Shown: positions 5,867 to 53,986 of the stretch, one piece after another | Numbering within the stretch: position 1 is the first letter of the stretch | Layout: every line of letters begins with the position of its first letter | Virus record (IMG/VR): IMGVR_UViG_3300035670_000143 | Coordinates: 1-64,000 of that record | From: a virus | Reading direction: 5' to 3' (one strand) | Length of the DNA: 64,000 nucleotides | Program-made: the position numbers and the translations under genes | Notes under the pieces: model-generated | Databases searched by the model: none | Told to the model about the DNA's origin: nothing | Seen by the model: the letters and a program-made list of their open reading frames with translations, nothing else

Positions 5867-5875
5867 TGGTAAAAT
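5867..5875 (+). promoter_or_regulatory. Extended -10 element, possible leaderless promoter
   Basis: TGGTAAAAT ends eight bases before ATG 5884. That spacing would put the transcription start on or beside the start codon. No Shine-Dalgarno sequence precedes ATG 5884, which agrees with leaderless expression. Confidence 0.4.
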
Positions 5876-6089: not shown

Positions 6090-6671
6090 ATGGCAGTTAA
6101 TGTTGCTAACATTGTGGTCGGTGAGGCTACTCTGAAGATTGGTGATTCCGCCAACGCTACAACTATTGCAGCAATGGATGCTTTCGATGATATCGGAGCT
6201 ACCCAGAACGGCGTGGAAATCACTTGGGAACCGGACATGGTGGACATTGAGATCGACCAGTACGGTGATGCTGCTAAGTTGATTCAGTCTAAGGTTAAGG
6301 TAATGGTCAAGACGACTCTTGCCGAGGCTACCCTCAACAACCTTGCTCTTGCTTGGAACTATGATTCTGTTGGGGCTACTACGACTGACATCTTGGCTAA
6401 CAACGATGGTGCAAACACTAAGACGTTCATGTTCGGTGGACAGAGCGTTTTCCCGTATGAGAAGGCTCTTGTTATTACTGGATCGGCTCCCGGTTCGGAT
6501 GCTTCAACCACCAAGACCCGTAAGTTCTACACGAAGCGAGCTGTTTCGATGGCTTCGACTGCTCTCACCATGAAGAGAGCAGAGGCTTCCGTGTTTGCTG
6601 TGGAATTCAGAATTCTCCCGAAGACTGAAGATACTGGTTACGAGTACGGTAAGATTGTCGATCAGACCTGA
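6090..6671 (+). CDS. Major tail tube protein
   Basis: 193 residues, beta-rich and Ala/Thr-rich, with a strong ribosome-binding site (TAGGAGG, 6077-6083). The profile (an early GEATLKIG strand, ITWEPDMVDIEIDQYGDAA, KVKVMVKTTLAEATL, then a C-terminal FAVEFRILP strand) matches the tube proteins of siphoviruses, including the typical 'V-I-VDQ' middle strand. Codons are noticeably more C-ending than in neighbouring genes, as expected for a highly expressed structural gene. A strong hairpin directly after it (6697-6730) would end or reduce transcription, giving it its own dosage. Confidence 0.75.
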   Translation: MAVNVANIVVGEATLKIGDSANATTIAAMDAFDDIGATQNGVEITWEPDMVDIEIDQYGDAAKLIQSKVKVMVKTTLAEATLNNLALAWNYDSVGATTTDILANNDGANTKTFMFGGQSVFPYEKALVITGSAPGSDASTTKTRKFYTKRAVSMASTALTMKRAEASVFAVEFRILPKTEDTGYEYGKIVDQT

Positions 6672-6696
6672 TCTTAATACAATTTAATTAAAATGG

Positions 6697-6735
6697 AAAC
6701 CTCAGGTGTGATAAAATACACCTGAGGTTTTCTTT
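6697..6735 (+). terminator. Terminator hairpin with -10 element in its loop
   Basis: Perfect 13-base inverted repeat AAACCTCAGGTGT (6697-6709) and ACACCTGAGGTTT (6718-6730), followed by TCTTT. The 8-base loop plus flanks spell TGTGATAAAATACA, an extended -10 (TGA-TAAAAT, 6709-6717). The 3' arm also supplies GAGG (6724-6727), eight bases before the next ATG (6736). The element therefore looks like a terminator, a promoter and a ribosome-binding site in one. Confidence 0.75.
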
Positions 6736-7482
6736 ATGATTTTATTAATTGCTGGGCTTCCTGGCGCTGGTAAAACAGCACTAGCTGAACAACTTGTATA
6801 CAAGATAAACGCAACTCATTTGAATGGCGATGAGGTTAGAGCAGGTATCAACTCTGACCTTGGTTTCTCAGAGAAAGATAGAATTGAGCAAGCCCGTCGT
6901 ATGGGTGAAATGGCTCGTCTTTTGTCACGACAGGGGCATATTGTTGTGGTTGATTTTGTTTGTCCTACTAATAAAACTAGAGATGCCTTTGGAAAAACTG
7001 ATGCTTTTATCTGGGTTGATAGAATAAAACAATCAAGATATGAAGATACAAATCAAATGTGGGAAGACCCTATCGCTGATCTAGTAATCCCAGGCGGGCT
7101 AACTATTGATAACGAAGTTGATACTGTTATTTCACATTTTGGCCTCCACGACTGGTCTCAGCCAACAGCTCTTTTGCTGGGTAGATACCAGCCTTGGCAT
7201 GAAGGTCATGGCGCGCTCAGAGACTTTGCTCTACAAGATTCACCACAGGCTGTAATCGGTGTAAGAAGCACATATGGAACTTCTAATAAAGATCCTTTAA
7301 GATATGAAGAAGTAAAGTCATATATAAAAGAAAAAGTTAATAATCCATTCATAATAAAAATGCCTAATATTACTAGAATTGTATATGGGAGAGATGTCGG
7401 CTATTCTATTGAAAAAGCCAATCTTGGTGAAGAAATTGAATTAATATCTGCAACTCAGAAAAGAAAAGAATTGGGTATATAG
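6736..7482 (+). CDS. APS-kinase-like / nucleotidyltransferase fusion
   Basis: Two domains in 248 residues. Residues 1-135 look like adenylylsulfate kinase or a close P-loop kinase: Walker A GLPGAGKT (7-14), LNGDEVRAGINSDLGFSEKD (29-48) and VVVDFVCP, the usual CysC core. Residues 143-248 look like a small NMNAT/cytidylyltransferase: LLGRYQPWHEGH (147-158, with the catalytic HxGH) and a terminal ISATQKRKEL (237-246). The order kinase then HxGH transferase recalls PAPS synthetase, but the C-terminal half is far too short for ATP sulfurylase. The substrate is unknown: sulfate, nicotinamide nucleotide or a sugar or cytidine adduct are possible. It is isolated by hairpins on both sides within the tail operon. 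Confidence 0.75.
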   Translation: MILLIAGLPGAGKTALAEQLVYKINATHLNGDEVRAGINSDLGFSEKDRIEQARRMGEMARLLSRQGHIVVVDFVCPTNKTRDAFGKTDAFIWVDRIKQSRYEDTNQMWEDPIADLVIPGGLTIDNEVDTVISHFGLHDWSQPTALLLGRYQPWHEGHGALRDFALQDSPQAVIGVRSTYGTSNKDPLRYEEVKSYIKEKVNNPFIIKMPNITRIVYGRDVGYSIEKANLGEEIELISATQKRKELGI

Positions 7483-7487
7483 ATTTT

Positions 7488-7516
7488 TTTACACATTTAT
7501 ATGATTGTGATACTAT
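7488..7516 (+). promoter_or_regulatory. Promoter TTTACA-17-TACTAT
   Basis: TTTACA (7488-7493), 17 bases, then TACTAT (7511-7516) preceded by TGA (7508-7510) as an extended -10. It lies just after the kinase fusion gene. Between it and the next hairpin (7517-7569) there is no gene; transcripts would enter that hairpin at 7570, so this may produce a short untranslated RNA or a leader. Confidence 0.6.
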
Positions 7517-7569
7517 ATTGTTAGGTCTTGTACCAAAGATCTTTAAATAATCAAAATATCGTTTACCTG

Positions 7570-7618
7570 AAAGACTCTCGGCTATTAGATGTGATATAAT
7601 CTTTAGCTGAGAGTCTTT
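7570..7618 (+). terminator. 15-bp hairpin enclosing a TGTGATATAAT promoter
   Basis: Arms 7570-7584 and 7604-7618 pair over 15 positions with one G-T wobble; the 3' side ends in TCTTTCT. The 19-base loop contains TGTGATATAAT, with TATAAT at 7595-7600. The expected start, about 7607, lies in the 3' arm, so the new transcript would lack the hairpin. It leads to the TAGGAGG (7633-7639) of the tail chaperone gene. Confidence 0.7.
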
Positions 7619-7645
7619 CTCTATTATCTAACCTAGGAGGATATT

Positions 7646-7948
7646 TTGACTAAGAATAAAGACCTTTTCGCTGGTACAGAGATTCTGTTCGCAGACGGAA
7701 AGACAAGAGTAATTAAGCCGCTGACTATTAGACAGTTAAGAAAGTTTATGAAGGCGGTTAAGGATTTGAACACTGAAGAGGGTATTTCGGATGAGGATAT
7801 CGATGTCATGATCGAAGCCGCTGCTATTGCTCTTGCAACTGTTGATCCCGAACTCGCTGAAGACCCCGATGCTCTTGAAGATATTTTAGATCTTCGTTCA
7901 TTCGGTGAACTGATGTCAGCAGCAATGGGTTCAGACCCTTCCTTGTAG
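7646..7948 (+). CDS. Tail assembly chaperone, upstream (gpG-like) protein
   Basis: 100 residues, acidic, mostly helical (KPLTIRQLRKFMKAVKDL, IDVMIEAAAIALATVDPELA). This is the typical profile of the first tail assembly chaperone, which coats the tape measure protein during tail assembly. The start is TTG 7646, decided by TAGGAGG six bases upstream. It is followed by an ORF in the -1 frame that is open from 7909, before the stop of this gene at 7946-7948, the usual arrangement for a programmed frameshift. It is directly upstream of the tape measure gene. Confidence 0.75.
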   Translation: MTKNKDLFAGTEILFADGKTRVIKPLTIRQLRKFMKAVKDLNTEEGISDEDIDVMIEAAAIALATVDPELAEDPDALEDILDLRSFGELMSAAMGSDPSL

Positions 7949-30357: not shown

Positions 30358-31490
30358 ATAATTTTATTTTATTAAAAAGAAATTTAGATTTTGACTATAA
30401 TGATTATTTTCCCAACACAATTTTTGTATGCGATCTCCCTGGTGTTCTGTCTAATTTAACTCTATTGAAACCCAATGATGAATTTGATATTGAAGATATA
30501 TCTGATTTAGCAATTAATTTATTTGATGCAAAGATTGGTAATATTCTTCTTATGAAAGAATATATTGAAAATAATAGTAATTTAACTGTTGAGTACCCAT
30601 TAGATATTGACGTAGATGATATTGAAATATTTAGTGTTGTAATTCCTCCATTTGATGAACTAACCGGCCATGTAGATAAATACACTCAACCATATAATTC
30701 ATGGGTGTGGGATAAAGATGCTGGACATTGGAAACCACCAGTGCAAAAGCCAAATTTAGATCTTTCTATGAGGTTGAAATGGGATGAGTCATGGACTGAT
30801 TGGAAAGTTAGTTTTGGATCACAAAATATTGATCGTAAAAAAAGAGCCTTTCAACTATGGCTGTCTGCTGAAGCAGACGGATCAAGTATGTTTTTAAACG
30901 CTTGCTCAACAAGAGATTACATGATTAAACCATTTGAAAATATAACTCATGGGACTAGAGATATTGAAAACTTAATAAAAAAATATAATGATCTAGTAGC
31001 AGAAAATTCAGATTATGTGAGGCCGTATATGTCAATACGTAGTCATATAGTTGTTATAGATCTATCGCCAATTGCTATAATCACATATTCCGAATGCCAT
31101 GATGATGCAGTAGATATGTTTAATGAGTTGTATTCAATGCACCCTCAGTTTTTTGCTAGAACCTCGCAGGAACTATTCAGGCTTATTATTGAATGGGCAT
31201 ATTCTCATACACATCTTAATAATCAAGAACTGACAGCAGTTAGTTGTTTTAATATTTTAAAGGCAGTCCAGATGCCAAAAACAATTCGAGATGGGTTAAT
31301 TGCAATGCAACCGCAGCAAGTCGGAAAGTTTTTAGAGGGTTCTGATTTAGCCCTTGTTGAGGAAGATGAAGATCCTGAATCACCAGCCGGGTTTGATAGA
31401 TGGATCAATAAACTTTATCAGCATTACTGCCATCTCAAACCAGGTCAGGAAAGTCATATTGATATCCTGCCTGATAGTTATCCTATGTGA
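30354..31490 (+). CDS. Conserved tail-associated protein of unknown function
   Basis: 378 residues, soluble and acidic. A recognisable motif is YNSWVWDKDAGHWKPPVQKP (residues about 112-131), a Trp-rich phrase seen in tail-module proteins of several large phages. The C-terminal half is helical (SQELFRLIIEWAYSHTH, IRDGLIAMQPQQVGKFL). No catalytic motif is seen. It may be an assembly factor for the fibres it follows, or a virion protein. It starts in the stop of the Fn3 protein gene. Confidence 0.55.
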   Translation: MNNFILLKRNLDFDYNDYFPNTIFVCDLPGVLSNLTLLKPNDEFDIEDISDLAINLFDAKIGNILLMKEYIENNSNLTVEYPLDIDVDDIEIFSVVIPPFDELTGHVDKYTQPYNSWVWDKDAGHWKPPVQKPNLDLSMRLKWDESWTDWKVSFGSQNIDRKKRAFQLWLSAEADGSSMFLNACSTRDYMIKPFENITHGTRDIENLIKKYNDLVAENSDYVRPYMSIRSHIVVIDLSPIAIITYSECHDDAVDMFNELYSMHPQFFARTSQELFRLIIEWAYSHTHLNNQELTAVSCFNILKAVQMPKTIRDGLIAMQPQQVGKFLEGSDLALVEEDEDPESPAGFDRWINKLYQHYCHLKPGQESHIDILPDSYPM

Positions 31491-31496
31491 TATAAT
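31488..31496 (+). promoter_or_regulatory. Extended -10 TGATATAAT, leaderless promoter
   Basis: TATAAT at 31491-31496 ends eight bases before ATG 31505. It overlaps the end of the preceding gene. No ribosome-binding site is present. Confidence 0.5.
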
Positions 31497-31504
31497 ATTA
31501 TCCT

Positions 31505-31678
31505 ATGGAAGAATTAGATATACAGTTATTAATATCATGTTACAACGATAAAATGGGTAAATTGATAAATGAACTCGTTGTCAAAGAAGCGGTTATTAAA
31601 CAACTTGAGAGAAAAGTACAAGCTCTCATGGCTGCAAGTAAGCCTCATAAATTAGCGGCTGAAGATTTAGAAGAATAA
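31505..31678 (+). CDS. Small coiled-coil protein
   Basis: 57 residues beginning MEELDIQLLISCYNDKM and continuing with a heptad-like helix (LVVKEAVIKQLERKVQALM) and an acidic tail. It is probably one long amphipathic helix. It is bracketed by two leaderless-type -10 boxes, its own (31491-31496) and that of the next gene (31685-31690), so it is probably an independent short unit. Unknown function; short coiled-coil proteins next to fibre genes are sometimes assembly factors, but that is only positional. Confidence 0.6.
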   Translation: MEELDIQLLISCYNDKMGKLINELVVKEAVIKQLERKVQALMAASKPHKLAAEDLEE

Positions 31679-31684
31679 TTGAGG

Positions 31685-31690
31685 TATAAT
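31685..31690 (+). promoter_or_regulatory. -10 box of a leaderless promoter
   Basis: GGTATAAT; TATAAT is six bases before ATG 31697, so the start codon coincides with the expected transcription start. No Shine-Dalgarno sequence is present. Confidence 0.55.
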
Positions 31691-31696
31691 AGTTAA

Positions 31697-32353
31697 ATGG
31701 CTTACGAAAACTATAGGTTTATTTCTTGGACTGACGGAACACCGATATCCAGTGACAGACTCTCACAGATGTCAACAAATATTGAGCAAGTCAAAGATGC
31801 AACAGATGATAGGCCGCAGGGTCTAATTCAAATTAATCAGACAACTTCTGATATCCCTAGTTCTGTCGGATATTCTGATTTTTCAGAGTATGAATTAATT
31901 GCTTTAAAATTTGATTCGCCCTCTGATAGGCGTGTGAGTATAGATGGTAATAGGTATTACAGAGTTAATCTCACATTTCCTGGTTTTGTTATTAAAGGTC
32001 GTGGTGCTGAGGATTCGACATTCTTGATTAAGATATATCAGGGGATCTTTGGGTCAGCTTCGACATTACTTCATACGTGGAAAATAACGCCGCACGTGTT
32101 CTCTTTCTATGATGTTAGTTCAGGAAGTGGAACAACTACTGTTAGTCCAAAGGCTAATGGTTATCCCACCATTATTGGAGCTGGTTCTTATTCAACTGTT
32201 TTGACAACCACATCATCTGGTCTTTCATCTGAGTCTTTCTATGTTTCTTTCAAGAGAGATCAAGGAGCCAGCACAGCAAATGCCCCAGCCTATTACATAC
32301 CAGGTAGTTACAGCACTATACAGTTATATATTGAAGATATTGGCGGTATTTAA
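31697..32353 (+). CDS. Minor tail protein, FISWTDGTPISSDRLSQM family
   Basis: 218 residues. The beginning (FISWTDGTPISSDRLSQMSTNIEQVKDATDDRPQG) follows a pattern widely seen at the N-terminus of actinophage minor tail and fibre proteins. The rest is beta-rich with Ser/Thr/Gly, ending in a jelly-roll-like segment. It is the last tail gene of the cluster, probably leaderless, and it overlaps the HNH gene start (TAATG). Confidence 0.65.
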   Translation: MAYENYRFISWTDGTPISSDRLSQMSTNIEQVKDATDDRPQGLIQINQTTSDIPSSVGYSDFSEYELIALKFDSPSDRRVSIDGNRYYRVNLTFPGFVIKGRGAEDSTFLIKIYQGIFGSASTLLHTWKITPHVFSFYDVSSGSGTTTVSPKANGYPTIIGAGSYSTVLTTTSSGLSSESFYVSFKRDQGASTANAPAYYIPGSYSTIQLYIEDIGGI

Positions 32354-32796
32354 TGTCTGATGGAGGTCTTGCCTCACAAAGAAAGGATGTTAAATGGGTT
32401 GAGTCATCAACAATGGGTGAACTTAATCCTAATTACTCAGGCGGTAAATATATAGACGATAAAGGATATGTTCGTGTCCTGGCTCCTGAGCATCCGTCTA
32501 GCATTAGAGGCTATATATATGAGCATAGGGCTGTCATGGAAGAATATGTTGGTCGTTTTTTAAAACCCTGGGAAAGCGTCCATCATATTAATGAAGTAAA
32601 ATGTGATAATAGAGTGGAAAATTTATTTTTGTGTACAGCGGGTGAGCATAGCGCTATTCATCGTGAAGGCAAAAAGCCTAGCGAAAGCCATAAAGAAAAA
32701 CTTCGCGCCAATATGAGACAGAGAAATAAATTAATGAAGAAGGATTTGCCCAGGTTACAGGGGCAAATTCAAAAAAAAGGTGCAAAAGACCCGTGA
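32353..32796 (+). CDS. HNH homing-type endonuclease
   Basis: 147 residues. NPNYSGGKYIDDKGYVRV and YIYEHRAVMEEYVGR lead into VHHINEVKCDNRVENLFLC, the canonical HNH core (tandem His, Asn, and a later His in EHSAIHRE). A Lys/Arg-rich tail probably binds DNA. Free-standing HNH genes of this shape occur in many phages, some as homing elements, some aiding packaging. Its place between the tail and metallophosphoesterase genes, far from the terminase, favours the homing type. Confidence 0.85.
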   Translation: MSDGGLASQRKDVKWVESSTMGELNPNYSGGKYIDDKGYVRVLAPEHPSSIRGYIYEHRAVMEEYVGRFLKPWESVHHINEVKCDNRVENLFLCTAGEHSAIHREGKKPSESHKEKLRANMRQRNKLMKKDLPRLQGQIQKKGAKDP

Positions 32797-32804
32797 TCCT
32801 GAAA

Positions 32805-32826
32805 AAGGTCGGGTATAATAGACCTT
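32805..32826 (+). promoter_or_regulatory. Hairpin with TATAAT in its loop; leaderless promoter
   Basis: AAGGTC (32805-32810) and GACCTT (32821-32826) form a 6-bp stem around GGGTATAATA. TATAAT (32814-32819) is seven bases before ATG 32827. An upstream ACCCG can alternatively pair with CGGGT. No ribosome-binding site is present. Confidence 0.55.
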
Positions 32827-34005
32827 ATGAATATTTGTGGAGCCGAAGGTTGCTCAGTTGAATTTGAACCTAATTCTTCAAATCAAAAGTACGCAGACCC
32901 TTCTTGTAGAAAAACACTAGACTCTTTAGGTCTGTGCAGATATAGAAAAGAAAATAACCTGGTAGATATGCCAGTCGATATAGAAACGGGTAAAAAAGTG
33001 GAATCCGATGCAGAATTAAGAGTTGCTTACTCTAAATTGCTTCAAGAATACGACAAGCTTAAAACTAAAAGCACTGATCTTTCGACAGCTGTATACCAGG
33101 CTGTCGTTGACACAGTAAAAACGCAAGAGCCAATTGCTTTGTCGCCAACATTTAATATTGTTAAATCAAAAAAAGATTCTAAGAATAAAGAGGTCGCTGT
33201 AGCAATTTTGGCAGATTGGCAGTTGGCAAAAGTAACACCAGATTATAACTCGTCAGTGTGTGAAAAAAGAATTGAAACTTTTGCAAACAAAGTCATTGAT
33301 TTAACGAATATTCAGCGTGCCGATCACCCTGTTGATGAAATAAGAATCTGGGCGTTAGGTGATATTGTTGAGGGGGAATTAATATTCCCAGGCCAGAGTT
33401 TCCTGGTTGATGGTGGTTTATATCGACAAGTAACTGTCGATGGTCCAAGAATCATGCGTAAATTTATTAACACAATGCTTGAAAACTTTAAAAAAGTTAC
33501 ATTTGTTGGTGTTATTGGAAATCATGGTGCTATTGGTGGTAGATCAAGAAGAGATCACGATCCAGAGACAAATGCTGATCGAATGCTTTATCGTATAGTT
33601 GAACTCATGTATGAAAAAGAGAAGAGAATTTCATTCAATATACCAGATGGTTATGGTGAAAGAAATTGGTATGCCATAGATAAGATCGGCAATTACAGTT
33701 CTTTACTACTTCATGGCGATCAGTTCAGCGGTCTTTCTACGATGTACTCGTTCCAGAAAAAAGTATATGGTTGGAAAGTTGGGGCTATAAAAGAACATTT
33801 TGATGATGTCTATTGTGGTCATTTCCACACGCCTACAAAGATGACATTCAATACGGTTCAGTTTAGAATCTCAGGTAGCCCAGAATCTACAAACACCTAT
33901 GCTATGGAGAGTTTGGCCGCTATTGGTCACCCTTCACAGGATTTGATGTTTGTTCACCCTGATAAGGGTATTGTCACAGCCGAATACACATGTTGGCTTG
34001 ACTAG
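32827..34005 (+). CDS. Calcineurin-like metallophosphoesterase with degenerate zinc motif
   Basis: 392 residues. The phosphoesterase domain (about 120-385) has the family motifs in order: ILADWQLA, ALGDIVEGE, GVIGNHGA, LLHGDQF and CGHFHTPT, giving the expected Asp, His and Asn metal ligands. The N-terminus (CGAEGCSVEFEPNSSNQKYA, then SCRK) resembles the small zinc motif of the 47138-47461 protein, but the third cysteine is replaced by alanine (YADPSC instead of YCSAEC). A coiled segment links the two. Actinophages often carry such enzymes near the lysis or replication modules; the substrate is unknown. The gene is probably leaderless. Confidence 0.8.
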   Translation: MNICGAEGCSVEFEPNSSNQKYADPSCRKTLDSLGLCRYRKENNLVDMPVDIETGKKVESDAELRVAYSKLLQEYDKLKTKSTDLSTAVYQAVVDTVKTQEPIALSPTFNIVKSKKDSKNKEVAVAILADWQLAKVTPDYNSSVCEKRIETFANKVIDLTNIQRADHPVDEIRIWALGDIVEGELIFPGQSFLVDGGLYRQVTVDGPRIMRKFINTMLENFKKVTFVGVIGNHGAIGGRSRRDHDPETNADRMLYRIVELMYEKEKRISFNIPDGYGERNWYAIDKIGNYSSLLLHGDQFSGLSTMYSFQKKVYGWKVGAIKEHFDDVYCGHFHTPTKMTFNTVQFRISGSPESTNTYAMESLAAIGHPSQDLMFVHPDKGIVTAEYTCWLD

Positions 34006-49174: not shown

Positions 49175-49207
49175 TCAAACAGGGAGGGATTTTCCCTCCC
49201 TGTTTGA
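49175..49207 (+). terminator. Perfect 15-bp terminator hairpin
   Basis: TCAAACAGGGAGGGA (49175-49189) pairs perfectly with TCCCTCCCTGTTTGA (49193-49207), loop TTT. It ends the recombination-region transcript. The last bases of the 3' arm (TTTGA) run directly into a TATAAT. Confidence 0.8.
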
Positions 49208-49213
49208 TATAAT
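49205..49213 (+). promoter_or_regulatory. TGATATAAT abutting the terminator; leaderless promoter
   Basis: TATAAT (49208-49213) immediately follows the hairpin, its TGA coming from the hairpin's last bases. GTG 49220 is six bases downstream, at the expected transcription start. No ribosome-binding site exists. Confidence 0.6.
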
Positions 49214-49219
49214 TTGTAT

Positions 49220-50260
49220 GTGAAAAAACTGGTGTGGTTGACCCACTCTCATTTAAAATTGGGTGATGGCTATGGATACGCTGCCGATAACATACTTAGT
49301 AGGCTAAAAAAAACATTCACGTTTGCGTACCCACCTAGCTCCCCATCTGACTTAGAATTACCTCCTGGCGTTGGCTATTCTGTTGAGTGTAAATGCCCAG
49401 AAAGCATAACATTTCAGAATGGTCTGCCCCCATATTTTAATAATCATGGTAAATATAATGTAGGTTTTTGTTATTGGGAAACAGATAAAGTGCCAGATGG
49501 ATGGATTCCTCATATGCAAAGAATGGACGAAATTTGGACTACATCTGATTTTGTATATAACGTATTCAAATCTTGCAATGTAAATGAAAATATTTATAAA
49601 TTCAATCTCGGATTTGATAATAATGTTTTTACAAAAACAGAGTCTACTCCCAATGGCCCGTTTACGTTCTTGTCTATCGGATCCCCCTCAACCAGGAAGA
49701 ATAGTCAGATTGCTGTTGATGCTTTTGTAAAAGTCAAAAGCAAGTACAAAGATATTAGATTAATATATAAGTCCAGTGGCCCCCCTGACGCTCGTTTATA
49801 TCATGGCAATATGAGGCAAGCTTTGTATAACGTGCCATATATAAATGTTATTGACACAATTCTTTCTGAGCAAGAATATGCTGATATGTATAGAAAGGCT
49901 CATTGTCTTATATATCCAACAAGTGGTGAAGGCTGGGGTATGATACCATTTCAAGCTATTGCTATGGGTATTCCTACAATATGTACAAATGCTACTTCAT
50001 GCACTGAGTATTCTGATTTGTCTATTCCTTTAAATTTTGAATGGTCACCTGTGCAAATGGGTGGTGTGTATAGTAATACAGGGAATTGGGCTATGCCGAG
50101 CTTAGATGACTTATGTGATAAAATGATATATGCAATTGAAAATTATGAATATGAAAAAGATAGAGCTTTGTCTGCCGCAGATTTTCTACATGAAAATTAC
50201 ACTTGGGACATAGTTTCAAAGGACTATAAAGATAGAATATGGGAAATATTGAAAAAGTAG
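49220..50260 (+). CDS. Glycosyltransferase (GT4-like)
   Basis: 346 residues from GTG 49220 (TTG 49214 would lie upstream of the probable transcript start). The C-terminal half has the GT-B signatures: FLSIGSPSTRKNSQIAVDAF, LYHGNMRQALYNV, and YPTSGEGWGMIPFQAIAMG with the nucleotide-sugar-binding Glu, followed by TICTNATSCTEY. It transfers a sugar from a nucleotide donor. It lies directly before the terminase genes. Possible acceptors are virion proteins, phage DNA or host surface polymer; none can be chosen here. Confidence 0.8.
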   Translation: MKKLVWLTHSHLKLGDGYGYAADNILSRLKKTFTFAYPPSSPSDLELPPGVGYSVECKCPESITFQNGLPPYFNNHGKYNVGFCYWETDKVPDGWIPHMQRMDEIWTTSDFVYNVFKSCNVNENIYKFNLGFDNNVFTKTESTPNGPFTFLSIGSPSTRKNSQIAVDAFVKVKSKYKDIRLIYKSSGPPDARLYHGNMRQALYNVPYINVIDTILSEQEYADMYRKAHCLIYPTSGEGWGMIPFQAIAMGIPTICTNATSCTEYSDLSIPLNFEWSPVQMGGVYSNTGNWAMPSLDDLCDKMIYAIENYEYEKDRALSAADFLHENYTWDIVSKDYKDRIWEILKK

Positions 50261-52690: not shown

Positions 52691-52729
52691 GCCCCGTTGG
52701 GCGAGATACTATGTCTTTCGACAACGGGG
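52691..52729 (+). terminator. GC-rich hairpin with TACTAT in its loop
   Basis: The gap after terL (52638-52762) starts with a long T tract and an A tract flanked by GCTACA/TGTAGC. Then GCCCCGTTG (52691-52699) pairs with CAACGGGGC (52721-52729). The loop contains GATACTAT (TACTAT, 52707-52712). No U-run follows. It is read as a combined hairpin and possible promoter for the 52763 gene, which has AGGAAA before its ATG. Confidence 0.5.
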
Positions 52730-52762
52730 CGACCGACCCCACCACACAGATAGGAAATACAA

Positions 52763-53094: not shown

Positions 53095-53131
53095 AAAAAA
53101 GCGCCGGCTCGCAATGAGCCGGCGCTTTTTT
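53095..53131 (+). terminator. Strong bidirectional-looking terminator
   Basis: GCGCCGGCTC (53101-53110) and GAGCCGGCGC (53116-53125) with loop GCAAT, flanked by six A and at least ten T, extending the stem to 16 bp. The T tract makes it the most typical intrinsic terminator in the window. Confidence 0.85.
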
Positions 53132-53137
53132 TTTTGC

Positions 53138-53143
53138 TATAAT
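53138..53143 (+). promoter_or_regulatory. TATAAT directly after the terminator; leaderless promoter
   Basis: TATAAT begins two bases after the terminator T-run and ends six bases before ATG 53150. The expected start is the A of the ATG. No Shine-Dalgarno sequence is present. Confidence 0.6.
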
Positions 53144-53149
53144 GCTTGT

Positions 53150-53986
53150 ATGCTTTCTACTGAAGAAATTAAAATTGAAATTGATAAAGATCAAATTAAC
53201 ACATGGTATCCGATGTTTGCTTTGCCATGTTATGACCGTCAAATTACTGAGCCGTTCTTTATGTCTATGATGAGAACTGCTATGAGATTTAGAGAACTTG
53301 GCTTGAGATTTGCTGTTAGTACAATCAGTGATTCTCTAATAAATAGAGGTAGAAATCAACTTGTTGCTAAATTTATGGCTAATCCTGATTTCACACACCT
53401 AATGTTTATTGATGTTGATCTTGGATTTGATGCTGATGATATCCTAAAGCTCCTTTGGCATGATAAGGATATTATGACTGGTGCTTATCCGATTAAAGAA
53501 ATTAATTGGGAAAAAGTCAAAGAGAAGGCTGCATACTTAGAGCCGGATCAATTGATGGAAACATCTCTTAGATACGTGGTTAATCCTGCTTATCACGGTG
53601 AGAATCGTGTAAAGGTTAATAATGGTGCTCTCTCTATTTATGATGCTGGCACTGGCTTTATGTTGATTAAAAGGTCTGTATTTGAAAAAATGTTTGAGCA
53701 TTATCCTGAACTGAAGTACCGTGATGATACGGGTTCTTTGAAGGGTGAAGAACTGAATAACTCATATGCTCTGTTTAATAGTTATGTCGATGAAACTGGC
53801 CGCTTCCTGTCAGAAGATTATGGCTTTGGCCGCTACTGGCAAAAAATAGGTGGTGAGGTATGGGTGGATCCATCTATTAAACTAACTCATCTCGGCAGAA
53901 TGGAATACACAGGAACTCTTGTTAACTGGCTGGTTGAAAATGCTAGAGCTAATCCTGTTAAGTCCTCAGACCCAGAGACAGAGTAG
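53150..53986 (+). CDS. Glycosyltransferase (GT-A type, DxD)
   Basis: 278 residues. The N-terminal part (YPMFALPCYDRQITEPFFMS, INRGRNQLVAKFM, then THLMFIDVDLGFDADDILKL) gives a GT-A fold, with DVD as the metal-binding DxD motif. DIMTGAYPIKEINWEK and a late EDYGFGRYWQKIGGEVW (the catalytic-acid region) complete the pattern. It transfers a sugar. It follows the terminase unit and ends in the long non-coding region. With the GT at 49220 it brackets the packaging genes. Confidence 0.75.
   Translation: MLSTEEIKIEIDKDQINTWYPMFALPCYDRQITEPFFMSMMRTAMRFRELGLRFAVSTISDSLINRGRNQLVAKFMANPDFTHLMFIDVDLGFDADDILKLLWHDKDIMTGAYPIKEINWEKVKEKAAYLEPDQLMETSLRYVVNPAYHGENRVKVNNGALSIYDAGTGFMLIKRSVFEKMFEHYPELKYRDDTGSLKGEELNNSYALFNSYVDETGRFLSEDYGFGRYWQKIGGEVWVDPSIKLTHLGRMEYTGTLVNWLVENARANPVKSSDPETE

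Follow-up and report, generated by a model that had tools for sequence, protein, structure and literature searches.

Hairpins with a putative promoter box at the loop in a phage tail operon

Terminators usually form modules distinct from promoters, and the locus analysed here raises the question of whether a single phage hairpin can carry both, ending one transcript and beginning the next. The window, that is, the whole stretch of 64,000 nucleotides under analysis, comprises positions 1–64,000 of a 75-kb virus record (GC ~38%) and contains a siphovirus tail operon. This operon consists of a major tail protein (MTP) gene (6090–6671, + strand, as for the other genes, elements and boxes given with coordinates up to 7948 and for the sites at 49175 and 53095), identified by PHROG major-tail and Ig-domain matches and by tblastn to annotated Streptomyces phage major tail proteins, an inserted moron-like gene of the phage kinase family phrog_10255 (6736–7482), a tail assembly chaperone gene (7646–7948; tblastn to annotated tail assembly chaperones) with the Shine–Dalgarno sequence AGGAGG immediately upstream, a second short gene and a reading frame of 3096 amino acids at the tape-measure position. 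A near-identity search among annotated phages gave no match. Because the MTP alignment, scanned against one genome per bacterial or archaeal species, found no relative, no host is named from that scan; we infer an actinobacterial host solely from the phage's relatives, and GC content together with general knowledge seemingly points to lakes as its habitat and that of the large phage group around it.

Transcription of the MTP gene seems to be driven separately. Upstream of it lies TGGTAAAAT (5867–5875), which resembles an extended −10 and is the likely promoter of the MTP unit, and a TGGTAnnnT match was present 223–229 nt 5' of the MTP start in all 11 relatives inspected. A nested element downstream would thus close a separately controlled unit of the most abundant tail protein.

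Downstream of the MTP gene, an earlier note had described two terminator-like inverted repeats with a −10 box at the loop, and both proved to be among the four strongest hairpins of the window (those at 53095, 49175, 7569 and 6695), with pairing that is perfect or nearly so. Element 2 (7569–7619), the clade-wide element of the MTP/chaperone boundary, has a 16-bp stem and a 19-nt loop and folds as RNA at −30.0 kcal/mol (z −8.0 against shuffles). Its loop contains all of TGTGATATAAT (7590–7600), including the extended −10 match TGATATAAT (7592–7600). Counting seven bases from the hexamer, transcription is predicted to start at ~7607, inside the 3' arm, as had been proposed. Element 1 (6695–6732), also recovered by a terminator scan, is a 15-bp hairpin with a T-rich 3' side (−25.2 kcal/mol, z −7.9) and the extended −10 match TGATAAAAT (6709–6717). 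Here the placement in the loop holds for the hexamer side only: the loop reads gataaaat, with TAAAAT at 6712–6717, and the preceding TGTG belongs to the stem. The start predicted by the same rule, ~6724, again falls inside the 3' arm (6718–6732). That arm also includes GAGG (6724–6727), a putative ribosome-binding site 8 nt before the ATG of the inserted gene at 6736, in agreement with the claim that the first repeat supplies this signal to the next gene. The arms of the two elements are unrelated in sequence. As the window shows no more than a mild excess of the extended −10 motif by itself, the weight rests on hairpin and box together, plus their conservation.

The inserted gene encodes an N-terminal P-loop kinase and a C-terminal nucleotidyltransferase-like part. 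It is not present at the MTP/chaperone boundary of a close relative (L004/L054), which has a plain terminator 3' of the MTP gene and then a box-bearing hairpin 5' of the chaperone gene that matches element 2. Another relative (L115/L145) carries a homologue of the inserted gene at the same place, preceded by one nested hairpin resembling element 1. These layouts mark element 2 as the boundary element of the clade and suggest that element 1 probably arrived with the gene. The gene at 6736–7482 resembles morons with their own promoter and terminator in that it is an extra gene between conserved neighbours, breaking conserved gene order and flanked by both signals, as predicted from sequence only. 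It differs from them in that terminator and promoter form a single nested element on either side.

Conservation of box, pairing and geometry

To follow the element beyond the window, we gathered viral contigs that encode a relative of the MTP or of the chaperone. In 40 of 43 distinct MTP 3' regions, TGnTAnnnT lay in the loop of a strong hairpin (0.01 expected from dinucleotide shuffles), related sequences in these and the following counts not being independent of each other. Three regions initially scored negative carry the element on inspection: in L093 and L107 it has bulged stems or a long loop, and in L118 the MTP gene is frameshifted and the element lies further along. A later, separately fetched sample gave the box in the hairpin loop in 26 of 27 new regions under the same strict rule, and in the remaining one (L445) the box lies one step into the arm. 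Since a hairpin on one strand is also a hairpin on the other, the non-coding strand can serve as an unbiased control. Among unique strong hairpins the box was in the loop in 34/46 on the coding strand and in 0/46 on the opposite strand; over 2.9 Mb and all loci, 69 box-in-loop hairpins on the coding strand, nearly all at the MTP/chaperone boundary, compare with 2 on the other. A search of Rfam gave no match.

At less than 75% identity, the elements group into 28 clusters. That T, G, T, A and T are constant across these follows from the search pattern, so that support for the box comes from the shuffle and strand controls. Across the clusters the 3' arms are 40% identical, whereas arms pair to 98.5% with their own partners and to 44% with swapped ones; the arms were picked as the best hairpin per region, which makes pairing partly a matter of construction, a bias covered by the shuffle test. 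Comparable element pairs showed 77 compensatory double changes against 4 broken pairs, counts in which pairs share sequences and events are not independent. Two of the checks that had been proposed, a scan of related genomes for such repeats and covariation of the arms with the loop box kept, thus came out in favour of the element. Loops that lose the −10 box while stems stay, named beforehand as grounds for refutation, were looked for in related phages and not seen. On the MTP tree all nested cases fall in one clade, bar the second hairpins of L332 and L384 in the tandem clade described below; these two are weak and not the main terminator, and we did not accept them as nested.

Nested elements measure ~45 bases and sit ~15–40 nt past the MTP stop codon, with stems of 8–24 bp, loops of 3–36 nt and, in several elements, a box that is partly stem. 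Despite the variable loop and stem lengths, the hexamer keeps a tight spacing to the T-rich window, measured to the end of that window (median 20 nt, interquartile range 19–22). Relative to where the 3' arm begins, predicted starts range from −6 to +9 nt (median +4), so that transcripts from the loop promoter would lack the 5' arm and hence the hairpin. In one subgroup (L402, L403, L411, L413 and L469) the loop holds an inner palindrome, AGTAT-N3-ATACT, and the −10 hexamer can pair at the apex.

With a stable hairpin, conserved pairing and a U-rich tract, the elements are predicted intrinsic terminators. A T-rich tail (at least 5 of 8) follows the stem in 24/28 clusters compared with 24% of random places, and the two elements of the window have 7/8 and 5/8 T. 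Four clusters have a poor T-run (3 of 8 in L077, L106 and L099, 4 of 8 in L054), which makes intrinsic termination doubtful there. TGnTAnnnT likewise marks a predicted promoter of the extended −10, sigma-70/sigma-A type. No signal of a −35 hexamer was detected at 16–18 bp (mean match 2.71, against 2.58 in shuffles); the −35 is dispensable for an extended −10 promoter with TGn.

Separate signals in relatives and elsewhere in the window

MTP relatives at ~35–40% identity include isolated Streptomyces phages of the Stanwilliamsviridae and Rhodococcus phages. At the MTP/chaperone boundary, Stanwilliamsviridae and Trinavirus have a short-loop hairpin with a T-run, followed by a separate extended −10 promoter. 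This tandem layout was present in the members examined (L128–L133 and L136–L142) and in nearly all related contigs, with promoters of the TTGATATAAT, TGCTATAAT or TGGTAAACT type, usually 13–35 nt 3' of the stem; some −10-like boxes of the tandem clade depart from the extended motif in its strict form. In two more distant phages, Francesca (L135) and OscarSo (L134), no separate promoter was seen at this boundary. A single long branch of the MTP tree separates the nested from the tandem clade. The two systems (tandem: L128–L142 and L315–L394) share the gene boundary, the order of signals, the extended −10 and the spacer length, and differ in that the loop of the tandem hairpin is short, for example a tetraloop, and the promoter usually lies outside and downstream of that hairpin. 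The order of terminator and then promoter in these relatives independently supports a stop-then-restart function. Intergenic spacers measure 105 nt with nested and 108.5 nt with separate signals, which rules out compactness as the reason for nesting; any economy in fitting both signals into about 40 bases, the length given in the earlier note, therefore falls away.

Two further observations concern the region just 5' of the MTP gene in these phages. Rhodococcus phage Trina (L132), an isolated phage, has a box-in-loop repeat at this different boundary, AATCCTACC-acaaaaTGATATAATataacaca-GGTAGGATT at ~1243–1283, which is not conserved in NiceHouse. The Streptomyces relatives (L128–L142) carry a conserved GAGGAAGTG...CTAGCCA...(CACTTTTTCA), unlike any recognised promoter.

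Four other sites in the window had been put forward as related, of which two stood, in a different form. At 49175–49213 a hairpin (49175–49207, z −7.9) is directly followed by TGATATAAT and a leaderless GTG at 49220, a layout also found in relative L267. At 53095–53143 the U-tract of a hairpin (53095–53131, z −5.6) runs into TGCTATAAT, with an ATG at 53150; terminator, U-tract, extended −10 and leaderless start thus lie within ~55 bp (53095–53150), 5' of a phrog_1574 gene. The latter layout recurs upstream of many divergent homologues of the 53114 gene (L224–L265), with 6–8 nt between hexamer and start. In both sites the box is just 3' of the stem, outside the loop, and the start codon is 6 nt past the hexamer, as in a leaderless start. 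They are fused tandem versions, cousins of the nested elements and not nested themselves. The other two sites were rejected: 32805–32826 folds no better than shuffles (z −0.33), and 52691–52730 is a modest hairpin (z −2.9) with neither an extended −10 nor a T-run after it.

Gene starts 6–8 nt past a TATAAT hexamer were seen at 31485–31507, 31685–31699, 32814–32829, 49208–49222 and 53138–53152, which suggests that leaderless transcripts are common in this phage. Separately, an HNH endonuclease gene (32353–32796) lies just 5' of a recombination-type exonuclease gene (32827–34005) and may represent a homing insertion.

Comparison with the tandem clade also bears on other readings of the hairpin. 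It could mainly serve RNA stability or processing, shielding the abundant MTP mRNA at its 3' end or being cut by an RNase, and cause little termination, with the loop promoter separately supplying the genes downstream. Its position shortly past the MTP stop codon would suit 3'-end protection, and the four clusters with a poor T-run would fit as well; we nevertheless hold this to be unlikely, because the T-rich tail of the other clusters is far over background and relatives have, at the corresponding place, short-loop terminators of textbook form. The inverted repeat could also act as DNA, as an operator that spans the −10 and is recognised by a regulator of the phage, with the RNA hairpin incidental. 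Repressor sites typically place a palindrome around a −10, and the inner palindrome of one subgroup adds to the resemblance. Yet arm sequences show no relationship from phage to phage, or from one element of the window to the other, so no single protein would read both, the symmetry goes with a coding-strand T-run, and the homologues in relatives are terminators, all of which makes an operator very improbable. Barely credible, finally, is a hairpin formed by the DNA itself, as a cruciform or on a single strand, that exposes the −10 as in single-stranded-DNA or N4 virion-RNA-polymerase promoters. The box is at the apex of almost every element and loops of about 8–20 nt look like a melted promoter, but loop length and box position vary as described above, the ~29 proteins scanned, a subset of the genes, included neither an RNA polymerase nor a sigma factor of the phage, and in relatives the promoter is outside the hairpin.

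A putative stop-and-restart boundary

We therefore return to the reading that the earlier note had offered, a stop-and-restart element at the gene boundary that would combine a terminator of intrinsic type with an extended −10 promoter nested in it. We consider it probable: stems that are replaced and still pair, together with the tandem signals of relatives, support it well. In the model, whose termination, initiation, start site, sigma factor and expression logic we infer, polymerase reading the highly expressed MTP gene would make both arms, and the folded RNA would halt transcription at the T-rich 3' side. Without a −35, the primary sigma factor of the host would read the −10 box of the loop, and the new transcript would begin ~7 bases past the box, at the beginning of the 3' arm. 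Without the 5' arm, the restarted transcript would form no hairpin and would run into the chaperone and tape-measure genes at a level of its own. The moron-like gene of the window, with a nested element on either side, would be insulated.

Nesting might itself be functional if the terminating polymerase were handed over, sliding back a dozen bases to restart at the loop promoter; chaperone and tape-measure output would in that case follow MTP transcription at a fixed ratio. The tight 20-nt distance between −10 and U-tract is compatible with such a hand-over, which we regard as doubtful. In vitro, the RNA polymerase of E. coli remains bound to the template once it has terminated and can restart at promoters in both directions, with downstream reinitiation of 37%, or 55% with sigma added (Kang et al. 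2020, PMC6978380); the retained enzyme could, according to a proposal by Harden et al. 2020 (PMC6978322), be used by a nearby promoter in sense orientation. The templates of this termination-coupled reinitiation were synthetic and their signals separated (PMC6978380, PMC6978322), and for the phage elements it is a candidate mechanism.

In the literature searched, with subscription journals mostly outside its coverage, we found no precedent for a promoter inside a terminator loop. In phage phiC31, intergenic stem-loops of the early region lie near early promoters. They reportedly act as terminators, some of them without a U-tail (Ingham, Hunter and Smith, 1995). These are likewise intergenic stem-loop terminators of an actinophage, in another phage and at other genes.

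The nested elements may serve as a candidate compact, insulated boundary part for actinobacterial genetics. They also make testable the proposal from single-molecule work that a polymerase retained on its template once it has terminated begins again at a promoter close by, and the sister phages with tandem parts offer a natural control pair. As the whole clade keeps the nesting despite a nearly complete turnover of stem sequence, selection appears to act on the arrangement itself in these phages.
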